Source: a virus
DNA length: 43,064 bases
IMG/VR virus record: IMGVR_UViG_3300033153_002893
Span: 1 to 43,064 of that record
Strand: one strand, 5' to 3'
Within the stretch, counting starts at the first letter, position 1, and each line of letters begins with the position of its first letter. Below, piece by piece: positions 2,983 to 43,064 of this stretch. The position numbers were made by a program, and so were the translations under genes. Below the pieces are notes generated by a model, which saw only the letters and a program-made list of their open reading frames with translations, was not told the DNA's origin and made no database searches.

Positions 2983-4294
2983 ATTCTTACTTATTTTTTT
3001 ATTCACCATTAACATCTTTGCCGGGTATAGTCAATCTCAGAGAACTAGGTCTGTACAGAACCCATTACCTATAGATGGGGATAGTGTTTATTGGAAAGAT
3101 ATAGATATTAGCAGATCAGATATGGGGGATTTTAGTGGTTCAATAAATGACTTATTTATTGATTTACATACTCAAGTAATTAATACCACTAGTGATAATC
3201 CTAAGAGTTTAATAATTTATTTTAAACGAGGGGTAGTATCTAATTCAGTAGCCATAGGTAATTCAGGTAGTGGTACTTTTAGTAATGTTATAGTTAAGGT
3301 TGCAGGTAGTGGAGGCATATACATCCCTATGGTAGACCAAAGTAGTAATGATACCAAGTATACTGGACGTAGTTATCTTTTCCCTTTTACTCTTGGGTTT
3401 ACTTCTATAAAGCTAGAGTTTCACACTACAGACACTATTAGTATTTCTAATTGTTCAGTTGGAAAAATTAGTAACACTTTAGCTAGATTACAAGCAGTCA
3501 AACCAGACTATTCAGTTACTGATATTAATGCAACAACAGGTGGGAATTTAAAAGTAGCCATTGAAGAACTAGAACTTGAAGCTCAGACCCCTTTCTTATT
3601 GCGAGTTGCTAAAGGTGAGATTACTGGCCATAGTATAATATCAAAGTTTGGACAAAATAATGATGTAGGGACGGGTTCTTATGAGGATGTGTGGGATGGT
3701 GGAGGCACTTATAATTATCCAACTGATAGTACTGCTCCAATTACAAAATTAGTAGCCCATAATGCGGCTGATACAGAACCCATAGAAATTCAAGGCTTAG
3801 ATATTAATGGTGATTTATCTGTTCAAACTAGAACTTTAACAGGATTAACAGCAGTAGATTTAGACCCAGATTTATGGAGAGTTTTCAGATTAAAAAATGT
3901 AGGTACTTCTGATTTAGTTAGTGATGTTTGTGCAATAAATGATGGCGATACAGTTGACTATGCTTGTATTAATAATGGTAATAATCAGACACTAATGGCT
4001 TTATATACCATCCCTAATGGTAAAATAGGCTACTTACTCCAAGGAACTAATAGCATAATAGGGACTAATAGAGGATATAGTATTGATGGTAAATTATGGA
4101 TGAAGCCCTATGGATTAGTGTTCCAGTTAAAGAGGACTTTTGGGTTGTCTAGTGATGGCTCTGGATTTATTAAAATGCCATTTCCTTTACCGGGAGCTAT
4201 CCCAGCTAAAACTGATATTAGAATTAGCGCAATAAGTAGTGCGGCAGGTGGAGGGTTAAACACAACCTTTGAAATACTTTTAATAGACGATTAA
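2969..4294 (+). CDS. Virion structural protein with N-terminal signal peptide (441 aa)
   Basis: The ATG at 2969 is preferred over an in-frame GTG at 2963, because AGGAGG (2958-2963) then lies five bases upstream. It overlaps the previous gene's end in another frame, suggesting coupled translation. Residues 1-18 (RVIKFLLIFLFTINIFA) form a signal peptide. The part from about residue 205 to the end, with IWDGGG-type (VWDGGGTYNYPT), LWRVFRLKNVG and YTIPNGKIGYL segments, matches a motif pattern I know from virion proteins of marine podoviruses and other phages. An N-terminal export signal on such a domain is odd. Function is inferred as head or tail accessory protein. Confidence 0.7.
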   Translation: MRVIKFLLIFLFTINIFAGYSQSQRTRSVQNPLPIDGDSVYWKDIDISRSDMGDFSGSINDLFIDLHTQVINTTSDNPKSLIIYFKRGVVSNSVAIGNSGSGTFSNVIVKVAGSGGIYIPMVDQSSNDTKYTGRSYLFPFTLGFTSIKLEFHTTDTISISNCSVGKISNTLARLQAVKPDYSVTDINATTGGNLKVAIEELELEAQTPFLLRVAKGEITGHSIISKFGQNNDVGTGSYEDVWDGGGTYNYPTDSTAPITKLVAHNAADTEPIEIQGLDINGDLSVQTRTLTGLTAVDLDPDLWRVFRLKNVGTSDLVSDVCAINDGDTVDYACINNGNNQTLMALYTIPNGKIGYLLQGTNSIIGTNRGYSIDGKLWMKPYGLVFQLKRTFGLSSDGSGFIKMPFPLPGAIPAKTDIRISAISSAAGGGLNTTFEILLIDD

Positions 4295-4304
4295 GGAGAA
4301 TAAA

Positions 4305-4958
4305 ATGGCTACAGCAACATCTGATGTAGATATATGTAATTTAGCGATGGATTTATTAAACGACGCTAATCCGATTATTAATATATCAGCACCTACAACT
4401 AGCCATGAAGAAGTTTGTGCTAGATGGTATGATGTAACTAGAAGAAAACTACTTCGTAAAAATATGTGGAATTTTGCCAGGGGCAGATATCAAGCTTCCC
4501 GAGATAGTATCGATCCAATTTTTGGGTATGCAGATGCCTATAATCTACCAAATAATTGGCTCAGATTAATTGCTTTTGACGGAGAAAATAATCTTAGTAC
4601 AACTAGGGCATTAGGTGAAATAGATTTTGAGATCGAAGGTAATCAAATTTTATTAAATAACAGCGGGGCTGCATCTATTAATCTTCAGTACATAAAAGAT
4701 ATTACAGACGTATCAAAATTTGATGCAATTTTTGTTGAGTTATTTGCAACTCAATTAGCTATTAATATGGCTTTTAAATTAACTATAAAAAATACTGTTG
4801 TAACTAGGTTAAAGATTTTATTAGAAGGTCTAAATATTGAAGCAGCAGCTATTGATGGCCAAGAAAGACCTCCAAGAGTAATAGAGCATAGTAAATTTGG
4901 TAATGCACGTAGACGAGTTCGCAGGGGTAGTTCTGCGTCACAATTTATAGAGTGGTAA
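4305..4958 (+). CDS. Tail tubular protein A-like (T7 gp11 type; 217 aa)
   Basis: The protein begins with an adaptor-type helical segment (DVDICNLAMDLLNDANPI) followed by RRKLLRKNMWNFARGRYQAS, a pattern typical of T7 gp11/tail tube A proteins. It connects the portal to the tail nozzle. T7 gp11 is 196 aa, so the length fits. It is followed after three bases by the tail tubular B gene in the same order as in T7. The ATG at 4305 follows AAGGAGAATAAA. Confidence 0.85.
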   Translation: MATATSDVDICNLAMDLLNDANPIINISAPTTSHEEVCARWYDVTRRKLLRKNMWNFARGRYQASRDSIDPIFGYADAYNLPNNWLRLIAFDGENNLSTTRALGEIDFEIEGNQILLNNSGAASINLQYIKDITDVSKFDAIFVELFATQLAINMAFKLTIKNTVVTRLKILLEGLNIEAAAIDGQERPPRVIEHSKFGNARRRVRRGSSASQFIEW

Positions 4959-30069: not shown

Positions 30070-30615
30070 TTATTTCTCTCCTTTTATAGCTAGTTTCATA
30101 AAAATTTCATCTTTTGGTAACGGGCAATTTTTTAACCATTTAATATTATATTTAACTTTCCAATTAATTAAATTTAAACCGGAAATATCTATTCCAGCAA
30201 AAATATTTAAACGTAGAGTTTTAACATTAGTCCGATTCATTATTAGATATAATTTTAATGAACTAGCAAACTCTTTAAATGCCTCAACATCTGCCTGTTC
30301 ATGTAAAGTGACAGTAATACCATCTAAAAAATTACTTAATAATAATTCAATAACTTTTTTATTTGGTTTAGCTGTATACATAAATACTTTGATATTGTGA
30401 TTTAACATCCTGACAGTATGCGCTATTTCTTGAACTCTATCTGGAAATAACATTGGCTCACCACCTGTCAAAATGATTTCATCATAGTTAATAAATTTAA
30501 CCATTTCGCCATGTGTCGAGATAGTTTCTAGTTTATTTAGATCCCAATCTTTATTACAACAGCCCTCACAATTTCTATTACATTTTTCAGTTATTAATAA
30601 TCGCAATTTTTTCAA
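30070..30615 (-). CDS. Minimal radical SAM enzyme (181 aa)
   Basis: The CxxxCxxC motif at Cys12, Cys16, Cys19 (TEKCNRNCEGCC) binds a 4Fe-4S cluster, and GGEP at 51-54 binds SAM, both diagnostic for radical SAM enzymes. The rest forms a short partial TIM barrel. Length is close to the smallest members such as NrdG-like activases or QueE-like enzymes, but no ribonucleotide reductase or queuosine genes occur in the window. A substrate cannot be named. Neighbouring genes lie 1 base away on both sides. Confidence 0.85.
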   Translation of the reverse strand: MKKLRLLITEKCNRNCEGCCNKDWDLNKLETISTHGEMVKFINYDEIILTGGEPMLFPDRVQEIAHTVRMLNHNIKVFMYTAKPNKKVIELLLSNFLDGITVTLHEQADVEAFKEFASSLKLYLIMNRTNVKTLRLNIFAGIDISGLNLINWKVKYNIKWLKNCPLPKDEIFMKLAIKGEK

Positions 30616-32812: not shown

Positions 32813-33691
32813 TTAACGTTTTGTAAGTTTTAGGCCTAGAGTATCAGACCATTTTAAAAGGTTTTCTTGAGCGCTCTCGTCGTCTTTAAAAGGTATCTTA
32901 TTTAATGAAGGTATATACATGTCAAAACTTTCAATTTCTTTTTTGGAAGGTGCGCCAACGTAACCGTAACCTTCACTAGCTTTGAAGCCGTGCCTTTCTA
33001 CAACTTCGACGGATTCTCTTTCTTGTAATGCAAATGTAATTCTACGTAAAAAACTAGGATGGCAAAAAGTAAAAGCCAGTTTGTCCATGTCCAATGGTTC
33101 ACGCTGGCTTTTAATATTAAAAGTTTCAGTGTAAGTATGAGAATTTTCGTTATTGTTTATATGCCTTGATCTCGATTGAGTATAGGCCACTATTTCAGTT
33201 GAAATATTAGCTAGCTGTAATAACTTAACTAGAGCGCAAATAATAGCGCCACGCCTATATATTTCAGGTTCCTGTTTATTTCCAGAAAAACCGGCGTCGA
33301 TTAATATCCTAACTAATCTAACTGGTGCTTTTTTATTTTCTTTTATGATCTTAAAAAAACAATCTGGTTTACGTTGCTGGTATCTTTCATACATGAAACA
33401 ATCACCAACTACGTCAAACATGTATGATCTAGTTATTTTATATTTATTCAAAGTCTCACTTAAAAACTGACTAGCTAGCTTATCAATCTTTTTTAAGCCA
33501 GCAGGATAACCAAACTGTAATAGATTTTTAGCTTCTTTTAGAGATTTTGTTTTGGTAAAACTGACACAAGATTTATCTTCACTAGAGCGCTTATCGATAT
33601 CATCAAAAGCCGGCTTTTTATTATCGATTGTTTCAATGATATCATTGAAACAATCATAATGTCTTTTAATATGTTTATATTTATTAGTCAT
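32813..33691 (-). CDS. DUF7192/VWA-like partner of the AAA+ ATPase (292 aa)
   Basis: The ATG at 33691 is preferred to a TTG at 33703. The central part contains FDVVGDCFMYERYQQRKPDCFF, VRLVRILIDAGFSG and YRRGAIICALVKLLQ, a VWA-like core with an aberrant metal-site motif (DAGFS instead of DxSxS). I recognise this as close to the DUF7192 phage family, from memory. It lies directly after the MoxR-like gene. AAA+/VWA pairs usually load metals or remodel protein complexes; the target here is unknown. Confidence 0.7.
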   Translation of the reverse strand: MTNKYKHIKRHYDCFNDIIETIDNKKPAFDDIDKRSSEDKSCVSFTKTKSLKEAKNLLQFGYPAGLKKIDKLASQFLSETLNKYKITRSYMFDVVGDCFMYERYQQRKPDCFFKIIKENKKAPVRLVRILIDAGFSGNKQEPEIYRRGAIICALVKLLQLANISTEIVAYTQSRSRHINNNENSHTYTETFNIKSQREPLDMDKLAFTFCHPSFLRRITFALQERESVEVVERHGFKASEGYGYVGAPSKKEIESFDMYIPSLNKIPFKDDESAQENLLKWSDTLGLKLTKR

Positions 33692-33693
33692 AT

Positions 33694-35034
33694 TTACACG
33701 CAAGCCCCTGATAACTTATTTTGAATATCTTTATTTATTCCCTTAAAGATTGTCATTTCTCTAACTTCATTTTCAGGAAAACCAACTTGTAATAACTTAG
33801 CGCCTGAAATACTAGCACGCGGACTAATTATAATATCTAGTTTTAAATCAGTTGCTTTTCTTCGCATAACCTGAACGTTGTTAACTAGTTTATCAATCTT
33901 AATTTGTAAATCGGCCGTACTAGCATATTCCATAGCCAAATTACGTTCTAAATTACTGTCATATTCCCAGTTAACAAAAGTGAATCTATCACGCGTGGCG
34001 CCGTCTAGTGCGTTCCTGCCAATATACGTAATATCACCGCCAAGCATGATTGTGTTACCCGCGGCAATCATTCTAAAATTTTCATGTTTTGGAATTTCTT
34101 TATCTGGAAAAGTACAATTGCCATTACTAGTGGCGCTATTTAAAACGCTAATAACGTTTGGATTTCCGTTGTCTATTTCGTCCAATAAGAAAACCCCGCC
34201 TGTCTCGTATGCTTTACGAAAACCCGTTGTAATATAATCTTGGCCAAACATATAGCCTAGTAAATCAGTTTTGCTTGACTGTTCACAAACTGAAATATGG
34301 TAGAAAGGCAGGTCAAGCGCTTTTGCTACTTGTGAGCAAGCGTGGGTTTTACCACTACCAGCGCCACCATAAAGAAACAAAGGCAAATTAGCAGAAACAA
34401 TCTTAATAACAGTTTCTAGGGATTTATGAGCATTCTTAATCTCAATATTAGTCTTGTCTAATGTTTTGATATTTAAAGTCTTGTTATGGCCGTTTAAAGC
34501 TTCTGTTATAAGCTTGTTGACCTGTTCAATATTAATATCGTTATTAATAGATTGAACGTTTAAAAGCTTTGCAAACGCATCAAGAGTAGATTGTGTCTCG
34601 TTATTGCCATTATCTTGGCCTTTACCATAGATAGCCCTAGTTTTGGTTTTATTAGTTTTAGGCGTTAATTGAGTTCTGGCAGTTGGCGCAGTAGGCATTG
34701 GTTGATCTTCTATGTCAGTTAGCCAAGGATTTGGCATTGAAACAGAACTAGCGCCAGATGCAGGATCAACGCCAACCGTTCTAGTTATAACTGGCCTTGA
34801 TGGCATTGGTGGTATGTTACCAGTACGGCCAATAAAACTATAAACGCAAGATTGAGAACTAGAATAATTATAAAACCGGTTATCGGCCAAGTCAAAATCA
34901 TTTAATATAACTAACATAGTTTCTCTAGAACCTTGCTTCTCTAACCAGCTTTTTGATACTTCCAGCTTTTCACATAGTTCTTTTTGCCTGATAATGGCTT
35001 TTAACTCTTTATTTGTTTTGTCTCGATAATCCAT
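33694..35034 (-). CDS. MoxR/CbbQ-type AAA+ ATPase (446 aa)
   Basis: The first gene of the leftward block. The N-terminal 215 residues are disordered or helical. The AAA+ core then has Walker A 223-230 (GGAGSGKT), Walker B VFLLDEID (281-288), sensor 1 AAGNT (324-328) and Arg residues near RDR (348-350). Segments such as KTDLLGYM and GVFLLDEIDNGNPNVISVLNSA place it in the MoxR/CbbQ group. The partner is the DUF7192/VWA-like protein next to it. It is probably expressed first after infection and may remodel a host complex. Confidence 0.88.
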   Translation of the reverse strand: MDYRDKTNKELKAIIRQKELCEKLEVSKSWLEKQGSRETMLVILNDFDLADNRFYNYSSSQSCVYSFIGRTGNIPPMPSRPVITRTVGVDPASGASSVSMPNPWLTDIEDQPMPTAPTARTQLTPKTNKTKTRAIYGKGQDNGNNETQSTLDAFAKLLNVQSINNDINIEQVNKLITEALNGHNKTLNIKTLDKTNIEIKNAHKSLETVIKIVSANLPLFLYGGAGSGKTHACSQVAKALDLPFYHISVCEQSSKTDLLGYMFGQDYITTGFRKAYETGGVFLLDEIDNGNPNVISVLNSATSNGNCTFPDKEIPKHENFRMIAAGNTIMLGGDITYIGRNALDGATRDRFTFVNWEYDSNLERNLAMEYASTADLQIKIDKLVNNVQVMRRKATDLKLDIIISPRASISGAKLLQVGFPENEVREMTIFKGINKDIQNKLSGACV

Positions 35035-35147
35035 TTTTAACCCCTTTTTGTTTAATTTGTTTAATTTCTCGTTTTTTGGTATTTTATTAAATCCGTTTTA
35101 ATCCTTTGTTTATTTAGGTTGCAGGTTACTGTCAGTTATTTAAAGTT

Positions 35148-35177
35148 AGTTTACCATAATATTAATTACTTTTGCAA
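35148..35177 (-). promoter_or_regulatory. Candidate leftward early promoter
   Basis: On the minus strand, TTGCAA (35172-35177) is followed after 18 bases by TAAACT (35148-35153), with a TGG directly before the -10 giving an extended TGn element. The AAAAATCGATTTTT palindrome begins one base beyond the -35. It lies about 110 bases upstream of the AAA+ gene. Confidence 0.5.
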
Positions 35178-35380
35178 GAAAAATCGATTTTTTTAATGTT
35201 TTTTTATTTTATTTTAAGGTAAATCTTTATAAAAGAATGTGAGACAGGTTAAAAACTAGATGGTTTTGGTGGACGTTGCGCAAAAGACATTTTATTGGTT
35301 TGCTGTAAGTTATTTAAAACAATTAGGTTCTATACTAGTATACTATAAAAATAGATATAGTATATAGATTAAGGTAATAG

Positions 35381-35405
35381 GTATATATGCATAGTGCATA
35401 TATAC
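35381..35405. repeat. 25-bp hyphenated palindrome overlapping the first iteron
   Basis: GTATATATGCA (35381-35391) and TGCATATATAC (35395-35405) are perfect inverted repeats about TAG. The TATGCA-N3-TGCATA core recurs at 36019-36033, close upstream of the rightward promoter, as a possible protein-binding site. The right arm includes the start of the first TATATACGA copy. Confidence 0.7.
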
Positions 35406-35434
35406 GATATATACGATATATACGATATATACGT
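35399..35434. repeat. Four tandem 9-bp iterons (TATATACGA)
   Basis: Copies at 35399-35407, 35408-35416 and 35417-35425 are identical. The fourth (35426-35434) differs only in its last base. Evenly spaced AT-rich repeats of this size are typical initiator-binding or unwinding elements. Confidence 0.75.
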
Positions 35435-35472
35435 TATAGAAAGTCTTGAAAATCGATTTTGACCTATAAATG

Positions 35473-35550
35473 TATTGAACTTATTGAACACAAACAACTT
35501 ACAACTCGATATTTGGCAAAAGGGCATTTTTTTGGTATTGAACCTATTGG
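35473..35550. repeat. TATTGAAC[T/C]TATTG direct repeat pair
   Basis: TATTGAACTTATTGA at 35473-35487 and TATTGAACCTATTGG at 35536-35550 differ at two of 15 positions. A candidate rightward promoter (TTGACC at 35459-35464, then TATTGA at 35482-35487) overlaps the first copy. Confidence 0.5.
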
Positions 35551-35654
35551 CGCGCAAGGGCTTAAAGCATGTTTTTTGGGGGTTGCCCTATAGAAGTGCT
35601 TGCGCTAGAACATGTTCTGTATATTGGTTATTTAGCTTATTAATCTAGTGTATA

Positions 35655-35775
35655 TTAGTTATGGCTAGCTAGTTCTAGTTATGATTAGTTATCTTGAATA
35701 TATTTATATGCATGTTATATACGTTTAGTTATTGCTAGTTAGTTCTAGTCAGCTAGTCTTGACAAACTAGCTAGT
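35655..35775. repeat. CTAG-rich imperfect direct repeats with a TTGACA box
   Basis: Two blocks beginning with TTAGTTAT and sharing GCTAG-TAGTTCTAGT then TCTTGA lie about 70 bases apart (starting near 35655 and 35725). The second ends in TTGACA (35759-35764), followed after 17 bases by CATAAC (35782-35787), a weak rightward promoter candidate. CTAG occurs many times within 120 bases. Confidence 0.5.
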
Positions 35776-35846
35776 TAGGTGCATAACATATAGATATATT
35801 CAGCTTGCATACAATTTAATTTCTCAACCCTACCCCCTTGTTTTTT

Positions 35847-35894
35847 GACCCGGGTGCGACCCAAAGGCCGCCCGTCCGCGGGGAGGGGATGGGG
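35847..35894. other. GC-rich block within the AT-rich control region
   Basis: About 38 of 48 bases are G or C, against a strongly AT-rich surrounding. It holds CCCGGG, CCGCGG, a GGGT-GCG-ACCC hairpin and three adjacent G4 runs (GGGGAGGGGATGGGG). It lies 220 bp upstream of the packaging operon. A packaging (pac or cos) site or a strand-opening signal is possible. Confidence 0.5.
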
Positions 35895-36018
35895 TTTAAT
35901 TAACCTCTCCTTCTTAGCCTTATGCTTTGTGTTCTCTCTTAGCCCTATACCTTCTTTCCCATGTATCCTTATCGTTATAAAAAAATTACAAAAAAAATTT
36001 CAAATTTTCAAATTGATA

Positions 36019-36076
36019 TATGCAAAGTGCATACAACTATTTTTATCTTGACAACAAGGTATAATTTTAGTATGTC
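36019..36076 (+). promoter_or_regulatory. Rightward promoter with upstream TATGCA palindrome
   Basis: TTGACA (36048-36053) lies 17 bases before TATGTC (36071-36076). The inverted repeat TATGCA-AAG-TGCATA (36019-36033) sits 14 bases upstream of the -35. A TATAAT at 36060-36065 is too close to the -35 to pair with it. The first gene of the packaging operon starts 37 bases downstream. Confidence 0.55.
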
Positions 36077-36113
36077 TTAATTTTAATAATAACTTAAAGG
36101 AGAGGAAGCATTT

Positions 36114-41018: not shown

Positions 41019-41852
41019 ATGACAATTGATTCAGTAAACATTCCAGCAAACGTAGTAACAGATCCGCCTCCAGGTGCGGACGTGGTAACAGATCCACCAC
41101 CTTTTAGAGATTCAATTCCTGAAGCATATCGTGAGAAAACTTATCTCCAGGATGTAGATTCTATAGAAAAAGTTTATGCTAAACTAGACGGATCTCAACA
41201 GCTATTAGGCAAACGCCCTAATGGGATCCCAGATAAGAACGCTACAGCTGAAGATTGGAACGCTTTTTATAATAATGCAGGCAGACCAGAAACAGCAGAC
41301 AAGTATGAACTAGAAGGTTTTAAAGAAGGGCAAGAAGAATTAAGTACAGATATTAAAGCGTTGTTTCATAAAGTGGGGCTATCAGGCGAGCAGGCTAAAG
41401 AATTACAAACTGGCTATGATGGAATTATGACTAAACTAGCAGAAGGACTAGGGGCTAGTTCTGAAGCTAATGAAGCTGAGTTTAGAGAAATGACCACTAA
41501 GTATTTTGGCGACGATCAGGTAAAAATAATAGCTACGGCTAATAAGTTATTAATGGAAAGTATACCTGCTGATTTAAAACCACATTTAGAAAAACTAGAT
41601 AATACTTCACTAGTTATAATGGCCTCTGCATTAAATAATATTCAGAAAAGATATATTGGCGAAGATAGGTTATCTCCTCGTGATGACGCTGGAGCTGGTG
41701 GAGGTGGGGAAACTCAGGCAGAACTACAGGCAGCAGCTAGAAAAATTATGAATCAACCAGGATATGAAGATAGTTTTCATCCAGACCATGCAAAATTAAT
41801 TGCAGCTAAAGATGCTATTTATGAAAAAATAGGTGCAATGCTTAAAAAATAA
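41019..41852 (+). CDS. Scaffold/capsid assembly protein (277 aa)
   Basis: An acidic helical protein lying directly before the capsid gene. The N-terminal Pro/Asp repeat (VTDPPPGADVVTDPPP) is low complexity. The centre (PEAYREKTYLQDVDSIEKVYAKLDGSQQLLG; WNAFYNNAGRPETADKYEL) is a widespread phage scaffold pattern, and the C-terminal end carries a short helix after a Gly-rich linker (DDAGAGGGGETQ), which often binds coat protein. Replaced or removed on head maturation. Confidence 0.85.
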   Translation: MTIDSVNIPANVVTDPPPGADVVTDPPPFRDSIPEAYREKTYLQDVDSIEKVYAKLDGSQQLLGKRPNGIPDKNATAEDWNAFYNNAGRPETADKYELEGFKEGQEELSTDIKALFHKVGLSGEQAKELQTGYDGIMTKLAEGLGASSEANEAEFREMTTKYFGDDQVKIIATANKLLMESIPADLKPHLEKLDNTSLVIMASALNNIQKRYIGEDRLSPRDDAGAGGGGETQAELQAAARKIMNQPGYEDSFHPDHAKLIAAKDAIYEKIGAMLKK

Positions 41853-41855
41853 TGC

Positions 41856-41884
41856 TTGACAAGATAGTAATATTTTGATACAGA
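41856..41884 (+). promoter_or_regulatory. Candidate promoter of the capsid unit
   Basis: TTGACA (41856-41861) begins four bases after the scaffold stop, with TACAGA (41879-41884) 17 bases downstream. The same CTTGACAA box is found at the rightward promoter and before the HTH gene. The -10 is weak; the TATAAA at 41885-41890 is too far from the -35 (23 bases). Confidence 0.5.
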
Positions 41885-41897
41885 TATAAATGCGAAA

Positions 41898-41973
41898 GTA
41901 AGTTACTCTCTAGTAGCTGGTAGCCTCTGATCCAGGCATACAGGGTTCGATTCCCTGCGGGTGAGTGACTTAC
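41898..41973 (+). ncRNA. tRNA-like structure in the capsid leader
   Basis: An 11-bp closing stem (41898-41908 GTAAGTTACTC with 41963-41973 GAGTGACTTAC; one G-T) encloses a perfect T-arm, CAGGG-TTCGATT-CCCTG (41941-41957), and an anticodon-like arm GCCT-CTGATCC-AGGC (41923-41937). A D-like arm CTA-GTAGCTGG-TAG (41910-41923) overlaps it, so both cannot be full length. The stem is longer than an acceptor and five bases remain unpaired, so it is not a normal tRNA. It resembles phage tRNA-like leader motifs (TLS-type). Confidence 0.62.
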
Positions 41974-42134
41974 GATTGCGCCATTTATGGACACCTACTA
42001 ACGTAGCCCATACATCATAGTAGTTCTATGTAAGGACGCTCCTTGTAAAAAAGCCAGGCAATGCCCAACCTAGTTGGATACCATTACCGAAACTAACCGT
42101 TTTTGTAATTGTAACGACTAAAGGAGGGCTAACT
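41974..42134 (+). promoter_or_regulatory. Structured capsid 5' leader with anti-SD segment
   Basis: After the tRNA-like element come compact hairpins: CTAC/GTAG (41995-42006), CATAG/CTATG (42016-42030), AAGGA/TCCTT (42032-42044), CCAAC/GTTGG (42065-42077) and AAAC/GTTT (42090-42102). CTCCTT (42039-42044) is complementary to AAGGAG (42121-42126) of the capsid ribosome site. The AAGGA hairpin and an SD-blocking pairing are mutually exclusive. Confidence 0.55.
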
Positions 42135-43025
42135 ATGGCTTCACCACTAGATCCGACGCAGATTATCCAATTTTCTGACATGGTGCATAACAAAGCACAG
42201 CAGATAAAAGCACGTATGCGTCCACATGTAAAAATCAAAAAGATGAGCGGAGATCTATTCGCCTATGATGGGCTAGGTCAAATCGAAGCTCAGGAAATTT
42301 CCGGCAGAGTTCAAAAGACTCAATTCACTGATATTGAACACTTGAGACGTAAGATCTCTCGTAGGAGATTCGCTGTTACTATTCCTATTGATGGAATGGA
42401 AGTCGCTGGAGCTTTACTTAATCCAGAAGCACCTTATGCAGAAGTCTGCGTAAAAGCAATGGAAAGAATGTTTGACAGAGTTGTTGTTGGCGCTTTCTTT
42501 GCTGATGTCTACACAGGTAGAGATTTTGAAACTACTGTTAATTTTGCGACTGACGGCGGTTTTACTGTTGATGCTACAGCAGGTTTGACTTATGAAAAAC
42601 TTCTTGAAGCTAAACAGAATTTCTTAGATGCAGACGTAGGTACTGACTCTCAAGAAACTATCGTGATGGGTATTGCGGGTGATGAAAATACAGCTTTATT
42701 AAAAGAAGCTGAATTAATTCACGGTGACTATTCTAGAGAATACGTTATCGACCAGGGCGATATCACTAAAGCTCTTGGTATGCAGTTAATCAAGTTCGCA
42801 GGAGCCGTTCAGAATCCTATTCTAAATGTTACTTCTGGTTCAGTCCGTGAGTGTTTTGTGGCCTCTACTAGAGGAATTTGTGTCGGTATGTCTCAAGATG
42901 TGAAAGTATCTATCAAAGACAGATCTGACTATGTTGACACTACTCAGGTTCAAATCGTCGGAGTTTTTGGCGCTGTTAGAACTGAAGGTGTCTTAATCCA
43001 GAAACTACAGACTACACCTGTATAA
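42135..43025 (+). CDS. Major capsid protein (296 aa)
   Basis: The N-terminal part (IIQFSDMVHNKAQQIKARMRPHVKI) and RRKISRRRFAVTIPIDGMEVAGALLNPEAPYAEVCVKAMERMFDRVV fit a phage coat-protein pattern of the HK97-like group found in podoviruses. The C-terminal half is beta-rich (GAVQNPILNVTSGSVRECFVASTRGICVG). It follows the scaffold gene, has a strong AAAGGAGGG site, and precedes the 165-aa virion protein. The long separate leader points to high, independently controlled expression. Confidence 0.88.
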   Translation: MASPLDPTQIIQFSDMVHNKAQQIKARMRPHVKIKKMSGDLFAYDGLGQIEAQEISGRVQKTQFTDIEHLRRKISRRRFAVTIPIDGMEVAGALLNPEAPYAEVCVKAMERMFDRVVVGAFFADVYTGRDFETTVNFATDGGFTVDATAGLTYEKLLEAKQNFLDADVGTDSQETIVMGIAGDENTALLKEAELIHGDYSREYVIDQGDITKALGMQLIKFAGAVQNPILNVTSGSVRECFVASTRGICVGMSQDVKVSIKDRSDYVDTTQVQIVGVFGAVRTEGVLIQKLQTTPV

Positions 43026-43064
43026 TAGGAGGGACTCATGGCTGTTGAAGATAAATATGTAAAC
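42951..43064. repeat. Terminal direct repeat, right copy
   Basis: Identical to 1-114; see the left copy. It includes the last 24 codons of the capsid gene and the start of the 165-aa gene. Confidence 0.95.
43038..43064 (+). CDS. 165-aa virion protein, first nine codons (redundant partial copy)
   Basis: The ATG at 43038 and the following eight codons duplicate 88-114. The complete gene is at 88-585 because of the circular overlap. Confidence 0.95.

Follow-up and report, generated by a model that had tools for sequence, protein, structure and literature searches.

Why does a stretch of RNA resembling part of a tRNA stand in front of a phage capsid gene, and does it regulate that gene? The window, by which we mean the whole stretch of viral DNA analysed (43,064 nucleotides), carries an identical 114-base direct repeat at its two ends (1-114 and 42951-43064), and the record therefore represents the complete circular map, some 42,950 bases long. 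The gene behind the leader encodes the major head protein (phrog_3437, E 1e-35). Relatives of this protein were found in 27 phage records, most of which belong to HTVC010P-type Pelagibacter phages; the closest (50% identity) is in MW202485, a freshwater genome. HTVC010P-type phages have been described as among the ocean's most abundant, and we know of no account of how they set their capsid output.

An earlier note on this DNA had described a tRNA-like fold located after a promoter candidate and before the capsid gene, and the leader does lie between the two. On its 5′ side, TTGACA (41856-41861) is separated by a 17-nt spacer from a weak TACAGA (41879-41884), behind which comes TATAAA (41885-41890); on its 3′ side is the phrog_3437 gene. 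No promoter was called in the window leader by a consensus scan. In relatives, TTGCAT/TTGACA...TATAAT-like motifs are found directly 5′ of the conserved element described below. Transcription would start at about 41891-41898, which would make the tRNA-like domain the very 5′ end of the transcript. The reading that we favour, with a probability of roughly 0.6, is that of a composite cis-regulatory capsid leader, in which a conserved core tunes translation and the tRNA-like domain is a lineage-specific addition on the 5′ side. Positions are collected in Table 1.

Table 1. Features of the capsid leader and their positions in the window.
Feature	Positions	Strand	Basis
Promoter candidate	41856-41897	+	inspection by eye and analogy with relatives; putative
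Closing helix, 5′ strand, GTAAGTTACTC	41898-41908	+	pair probabilities of folded fragments
D-loop-like AGCTGGTAG, without a normal D-stem	41914-41922	+	sequence; alignment to the Rfam tRNA model
Anticodon-like arm, GTAGCCT-CTGATCC-AGGC-a-TAC, with GAT where the anticodon would be	41920-41941	+	sequence and folding
T-arm, CAGGG-TTCGATT-CCCTG	41941-41957	+	sequence; tRNA model; identity with phage tRNA-Ala
Closing helix, 3′ strand, GAGTGACTTAC	41963-41973	+	folding
Conserved capsid-leader element, putative two-module riboregulator	41986-42092	+	covariance models R1 and R2; covariation
Module 1, TAT-GGACACC-TAC-TAAC-GTA-GCCC-ATA; A.C wobble, CAC bulge	41986-42012	+	comparison
Module 2, mirror image, AAT-GCCC-AAC-CTA-GTT-GGATACC-ATT; A.C wobble, TAC bulge	42060-42085	+	comparison
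Weak anti-Shine-Dalgarno candidate, CCTAGTTG	42069-42076	+	pairs with 42115-42124 (CGACTA-aa-GG)
Shine-Dalgarno sequence, AAAGGAGG	42120-42127	+	sequence
Major capsid protein gene, HTVC010P family	42135-43025	+	phrog_3437, E 1e-35

The tRNA-like domain

The fold announced for 41856-42134 is real, but its tRNA-like part makes up the first third only (41898-41973), the rest of the leader holding a different, conserved structure. In this domain an 11-bp helix surrounds two arms, one anticodon-like and the other a perfect tRNA T-arm; the parts listed in the earlier note were all recovered. The T-arm has a 5-bp stem that is Watson-Crick throughout and a loop that follows the TTCRANY criterion of tRNA. 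Its letters are those of phage tRNA-Ala T-arms, blastn matches showing identical stretches of 19-20 nt within annotated phage tRNA-Ala genes. The anticodon-like arm has a core GCCT-CTGATCC-AGGC (41923-41937) and extends to 7 bp with a bulged A, and the closing helix (GTAAGTTACTC / GAGTGACTTAC) comprises 11 bp with one T.G pair. The pair probability of this helix was 0.99-1.0 in fragments ending at 41985, 42025 and 42134, 0.87 in a fragment ending at 42095, and 0.62 when coding sequence to 42160 was added. The T-stem reached 0.4-0.8 in an energy fold of the whole leader, where the tRNA-like domain competes with other pairings.

The domain is not a tRNA gene. ARAGORN at default settings made no tRNA call for the leader; the score of 27 obtained at the domain with relaxed settings (-ps50) was discarded as meaningless, because 211 calls were then made across the window. 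The Rfam tRNA model (RF00005) gave 14.7 bits against a cut-off of 29, with E 0.08 for the genome, which refutes a plain tRNA; the domain was nevertheless the sole match to this model among the matches listed for the genome. Similarity to tRNA lies in the sequence and loop of the T-arm, the 7-nt anticodon-like loop with T33 and the D-loop-like AGCTGGTAG. In contrast with tRNA, the domain lacks a D-stem (3 bp at most, by eye), encodes no CCA end after the T-arm, and has a longer helix in another register. The tRNA acceptor register (41903-41909/41958-41964) would hold 4 Watson-Crick and 2 wobble pairs out of 7 and measure 63 nt, versus about 75 usually, and over the whole domain it is out-competed by about 10 kcal/mol (-15.1 for the tRNA register versus -25.6 kcal/mol for the extended helix). 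The acceptor geometry and the D-arm thus depart from tRNA, as the earlier note had seen. The top-scoring family for the domain, at 16 bits, was mascRNA-menRNA (RF01684, MALAT1), which likewise combines a reduced D-arm with an intact T-arm; it is eukaryotic, the domain falls far under its cut-off of 42.5, and the likeness is one of shape only.

These results bear on the proposal that the domain recruits tRNA-handling enzymes or marks the RNA for processing, which fared poorly given the out-competed acceptor register and the missing CCA end. A functional tRNA mimic, by which RNase P, RNase Z, EF-Tu, a modifying enzyme or a synthetase would control the capsid mRNA, could build on the presence of both T-loop and D-loop consensus sequences, on the identity of the T-arm with tRNA-Ala T-arms and on the single tRNA-model match among those listed. 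With an acceptor register of 4 Watson-Crick and 2 wobble pairs, no D-stem, a short length and scores under every tRNA cut-off, we consider such a mimic unlikely.

Could the resemblance be accidental? Of 20,000 dinucleotide-shuffled versions of the leader, 19 contained a T-arm of this kind, and not one also had a helix of 10 bp or more around it. Given the T-arm, a helix of at least 10 bp in the same geometry formed in 75 of 20,000 randomised flanks. Lone T-arms are not rare in 43 kb (five in the window, both strands counted), so that what is improbable is to find the combination within this leader. An accidental domain is unlikely. In particular, the coinciding of a T-arm, a hairpin and an inverted repeat in a non-conserved stretch would agree with the lone T-arms found in the window and with the absence of the domain from every related leader, but it is highly improbable in view of the shuffles (a T-arm frequency of 19/20,000 multiplied by a helix frequency near 0.004).

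Independent relatives of the domain were then sought. With an exact pattern, the sole other copy in IMG/VR lay in a contig 99.99% identical to the window over 10.6 kb, and a pattern combining the T-arm with a module returned only this contig among the matches listed. No match was found by two patterns across 84,980 bacterial and archaeal genomes. By blastn, the matches in phages were confined to tRNA-Ala fragments the size of the T-arm and to unrelated stretches of 24 nt, and plasmids gave nothing matching the domain. The leaders of 35 contigs with capsid proteins 45-63% identical to that of the window do not carry it either. On this evidence from sequence comparison, the domain appears to be private to this lineage, and, since it has no independent relative, it could be neutral. 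A true tRNA-Met gene was located in MW202485 (L246) at 35738-35809, minus strand; the window has no tRNA gene.

A neutral domain might be what is left, decaying and functionless, of a tRNA gene once captured or of an attachment site derived from a tRNA. Its real tRNA sequence features would be accounted for, and a related phage does carry a true tRNA-Met elsewhere. We find this origin doubtful, as the enclosing helix of 11 bp is nearly perfect and foreign to any tRNA (0.4% by chance given the T-arm), and no matching sequence was detected by the two patterns in the 84,980 prokaryotic genomes.

Alternatively, the domain may be a separate small RNA gene, or an RNA of the DUF3800 type, parked 5′ of the capsid gene. 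DUF3800 proteins, which are associated with RNAs, are predicted to be nucleases of the RNase H fold (PMC10910872). One relative, L094, has a DUF3800-IX RNA (4621-4684, 47 bits) and a DUF3800-VIII RNA (4715-4777, 53 bits) between its scaffold and capsid genes, 5′ of its own conserved element. DUF3800-IX (RF02968) is likewise a three-way junction of similar size with an 11-bp closing helix and two hairpins. Against this, the conserved letters of DUF3800-IX are absent from the window domain and no covariance model match was obtained, no DUF3800 family matching 41800-42200 at E up to 10. No DUF3800 protein was found in the window, L094 or L092 records, and no terminator separates the domain from the capsid gene on this strand. 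We regard a parked RNA as very unlikely. The gap before the capsid gene does accept other structures too; in L105, extra hairpins were seen there by eye.

A conserved two-module element ahead of the capsid gene

Downstream of the tRNA-like domain we found a conserved element (41986-42092) that had been overlooked in the earlier reading. It is made of two modules, the consensus being 5′-GGRYANC-hairpin-GYCC for module 1 and, in reverse order, 5′-GYCC-hairpin-GGRYANC for module 2. In both, a wobble pair (G.U or A.C) comes after two G-C pairs, and beyond it lie a bulge of 3 nt and a C-G pair. In the window, GGACACC/GCCC and GCCC/GGATACC are mirror images of each other with the same type of wobble and bulge. 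The anticodon-like arm was considered as a third such module (GGTAGC...GATCC) and rejected: it is one G short and has no canonical wobble.

A covariance model trained on six other phages, window excluded (R1), gave a single match on the window, at exactly these positions (24.4 bits, E 0.006 over 296 kb). This result comes from local R1 searches, which were used in place of a whole-record search; the list of the latter did not contain weak members such as the window, probably due to a looser first look or stricter scoring. A second model (R2) was trained on 19 leaders including the window, which as a member of the training alignment scored 50.5 bits. R2 matched 32 of the 64 loci at E up to 0.4, all matches being on the coding strand directly 5′ of the capsid gene and nowhere else. 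Among them were pelagiphage types outside the training set (L057, L053, L052 and others, E 6e-6 to 0.04; also the leaders L042, L082 and L013). In the alignment, whose counts are inflated by fitting to the structure, 19 of the 24 pairs change on both sides, 90.2% of the cells form pairs versus 32-43% with partners slid by 1-3 columns, and the observed covariation scores were reached by none of 500 shuffles; the R2 matches outside training are independent of this fitting. Unconstrained folding of the whole leader gave low probabilities for modules 1 and 2, and the core element rests for this reason on comparison and not on energy.

The wobble varies in concert between the two modules. Ten genomes are G.U/G.U, six are A.C/A.C (window included) and two are mixed (L097, L107), so that the types agree in 16 of the 18 genomes in which both modules could be read; L109 is misaligned in module 2. 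Because the wobble type is shared within a genome, one partner may bind both modules, and a small motif present in two copies that vary together (G.U/G.U or A.C/A.C) would point to a dedicated one.

In the window the element ends 42 nt 5′ of the capsid start codon, and its position is the same in relatives; it is present ahead of the same capsid gene in many related freshwater and marine phages. To avoid choosing loci by their capsid gene, IMG/VR was also scanned blind to genes, with a DNA pattern of module 2 alone. At least 13 loci were R2-positive (13 of 80 among the matches listed). At least 12 of these lie 7-51 nt 5′ of a member of this capsid family (hmmsearch E <1e-78), and the remaining one among the matches listed is truncated where its stretch ends. 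Since 12 of the 13 gene-blind loci among the matches listed precede that family, we conclude that the element is tied to the HTVC010P-type capsid. At the same place, MW202485 (L004) has a deposited 30-aa "hypothetical protein", UOF77784.1 (2363-2452), which occupies the interval of the RNA element (2362-2450) and probably does not represent a gene; MW202742 has a 30-aa ORF there as well (UOF81360.1).

When the window, 16 close relatives and 15 loci of pelagiphage type were compared with Rfam 15, no family matched the element in any of them. In the literature searched, which included few subscription papers, we came across no account of structure in the capsid leaders of these phages, nor of a tRNA-like domain within one. 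This is no proof of novelty, because a 2017 survey, reportedly of 224 candidate bacterial RNAs, lies outside the literature covered.

Module 2 and the ribosome site

In several relatives the hairpin of module 2 is complementary to the Shine-Dalgarno region of its own leader. This is the case for L126 (CTCCTATG with the ribosome site CATAGGAG), L122 (TTCTTGTAATGG with CCATTACAAGGA) and L118 (ACTTCTTTAGTG with CATTAAAGGAGT). When hairpins and ribosome sites were swapped among genomes, the observed fit was reached in 0 of 5,000 permutations by duplex energy (36 leaders) and in 0 of 20,000 by helix score (17 leaders whose hairpins are longer), figures that are somewhat inflated by related sequences. 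The property is not general. The module-2 hairpins of L104, L101 and L114 do not rank their own ribosome site high, and in many pelagiphages the pairing is absent, their 4-nt module-2 loops making it impossible. Four leaders found later, without recourse to this feature, were inspected by eye: in L279, TTTATTGG is complementary to CCAATAAA, L302 shows pairing, L286 an interrupted one, and L301 none.

In L118 and L122 the same bases form the stem of the hairpin, and the hairpin and the ribosome-site pairing are therefore mutually exclusive, an arrangement that would constitute a switch. In the window, the duplex of CCTAGTTG has 7 bp with a 2-nt bulge and -4.0 kcal/mol (hairpin alone), the own site ranking 5 of 17; being so weak, this pairing is a candidate only. 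The masking by TAGCCC of module 1 of a GGGCTA located behind the ribosome site was also considered and set aside, a 6-bp match being typical of other leaders.

Proposed mechanism and genomic context

That the whole leader is a cis-regulatory RNA is very probable, and the conserved element probably controls the amount of capsid made. The earlier suggestion of a control of translation is upheld to this extent; the evidence for it comes from the separate element and not from the tRNA-like part, to which it had been attached. Phage and ribosomal-protein mRNAs have structured leaders under translational self-control. The capsid leader resembles them by its bulged helices 5′ of a structural-protein gene and by the possible masking of the ribosome site, and differs in that its element is double and mirror-image, tied to one capsid family and outside Rfam 15.

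In the composite leader that we propose, the transcript would present in order the tRNA-like domain, 12 nt, the conserved element and the ribosome site. The same partner, probably a phage protein, would act at both modules, and the core would tune capsid translation; in many relatives the module-2 hairpin could open and pair with the Shine-Dalgarno region of the same phage. As for the tRNA-like domain, whether derived from a tRNA elbow (D-loop and T-loop sequences) or convergent with one, it would most likely form a stable three-way junction at the 5′ terminus that shields this end from decay and insulates the fold of the core; we infer these functions, as we would any other for this domain. 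That host tRNA machinery (e.g. RNase P, EF-Tu) would read it as a tRNA mimic and so gate the two-module capsid switch is a long shot, under which capsid output would follow the state of host tRNA handling. If functional in any way, it would be an uncommon tRNA-shaped domain inside the mRNA leader of a dsDNA phage. A conserved RNA switch locked to the HTVC010P-type capsid gene would itself offer a directly testable handle on capsid output.

Other features of the window were recorded in passing. Contig 3300033155_001631 lacks about 103 bases at window 3033-3135 and is otherwise 99.99% identical to it. A 1.1-kb AT-rich stretch without a large gene (35035-36113), situated between leftward and rightward gene blocks, contains ATATACG repeats near 35390-35436 and a 16-nt inverted repeat (35695-35710/35787-35802), and is a possible origin or control region. 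On the minus strand at 32813-35034, a CobS-like AAA protein (phrog_249) adjoins a DUF7192 protein, and a small radical-SAM protein is encoded at 30070-30615.
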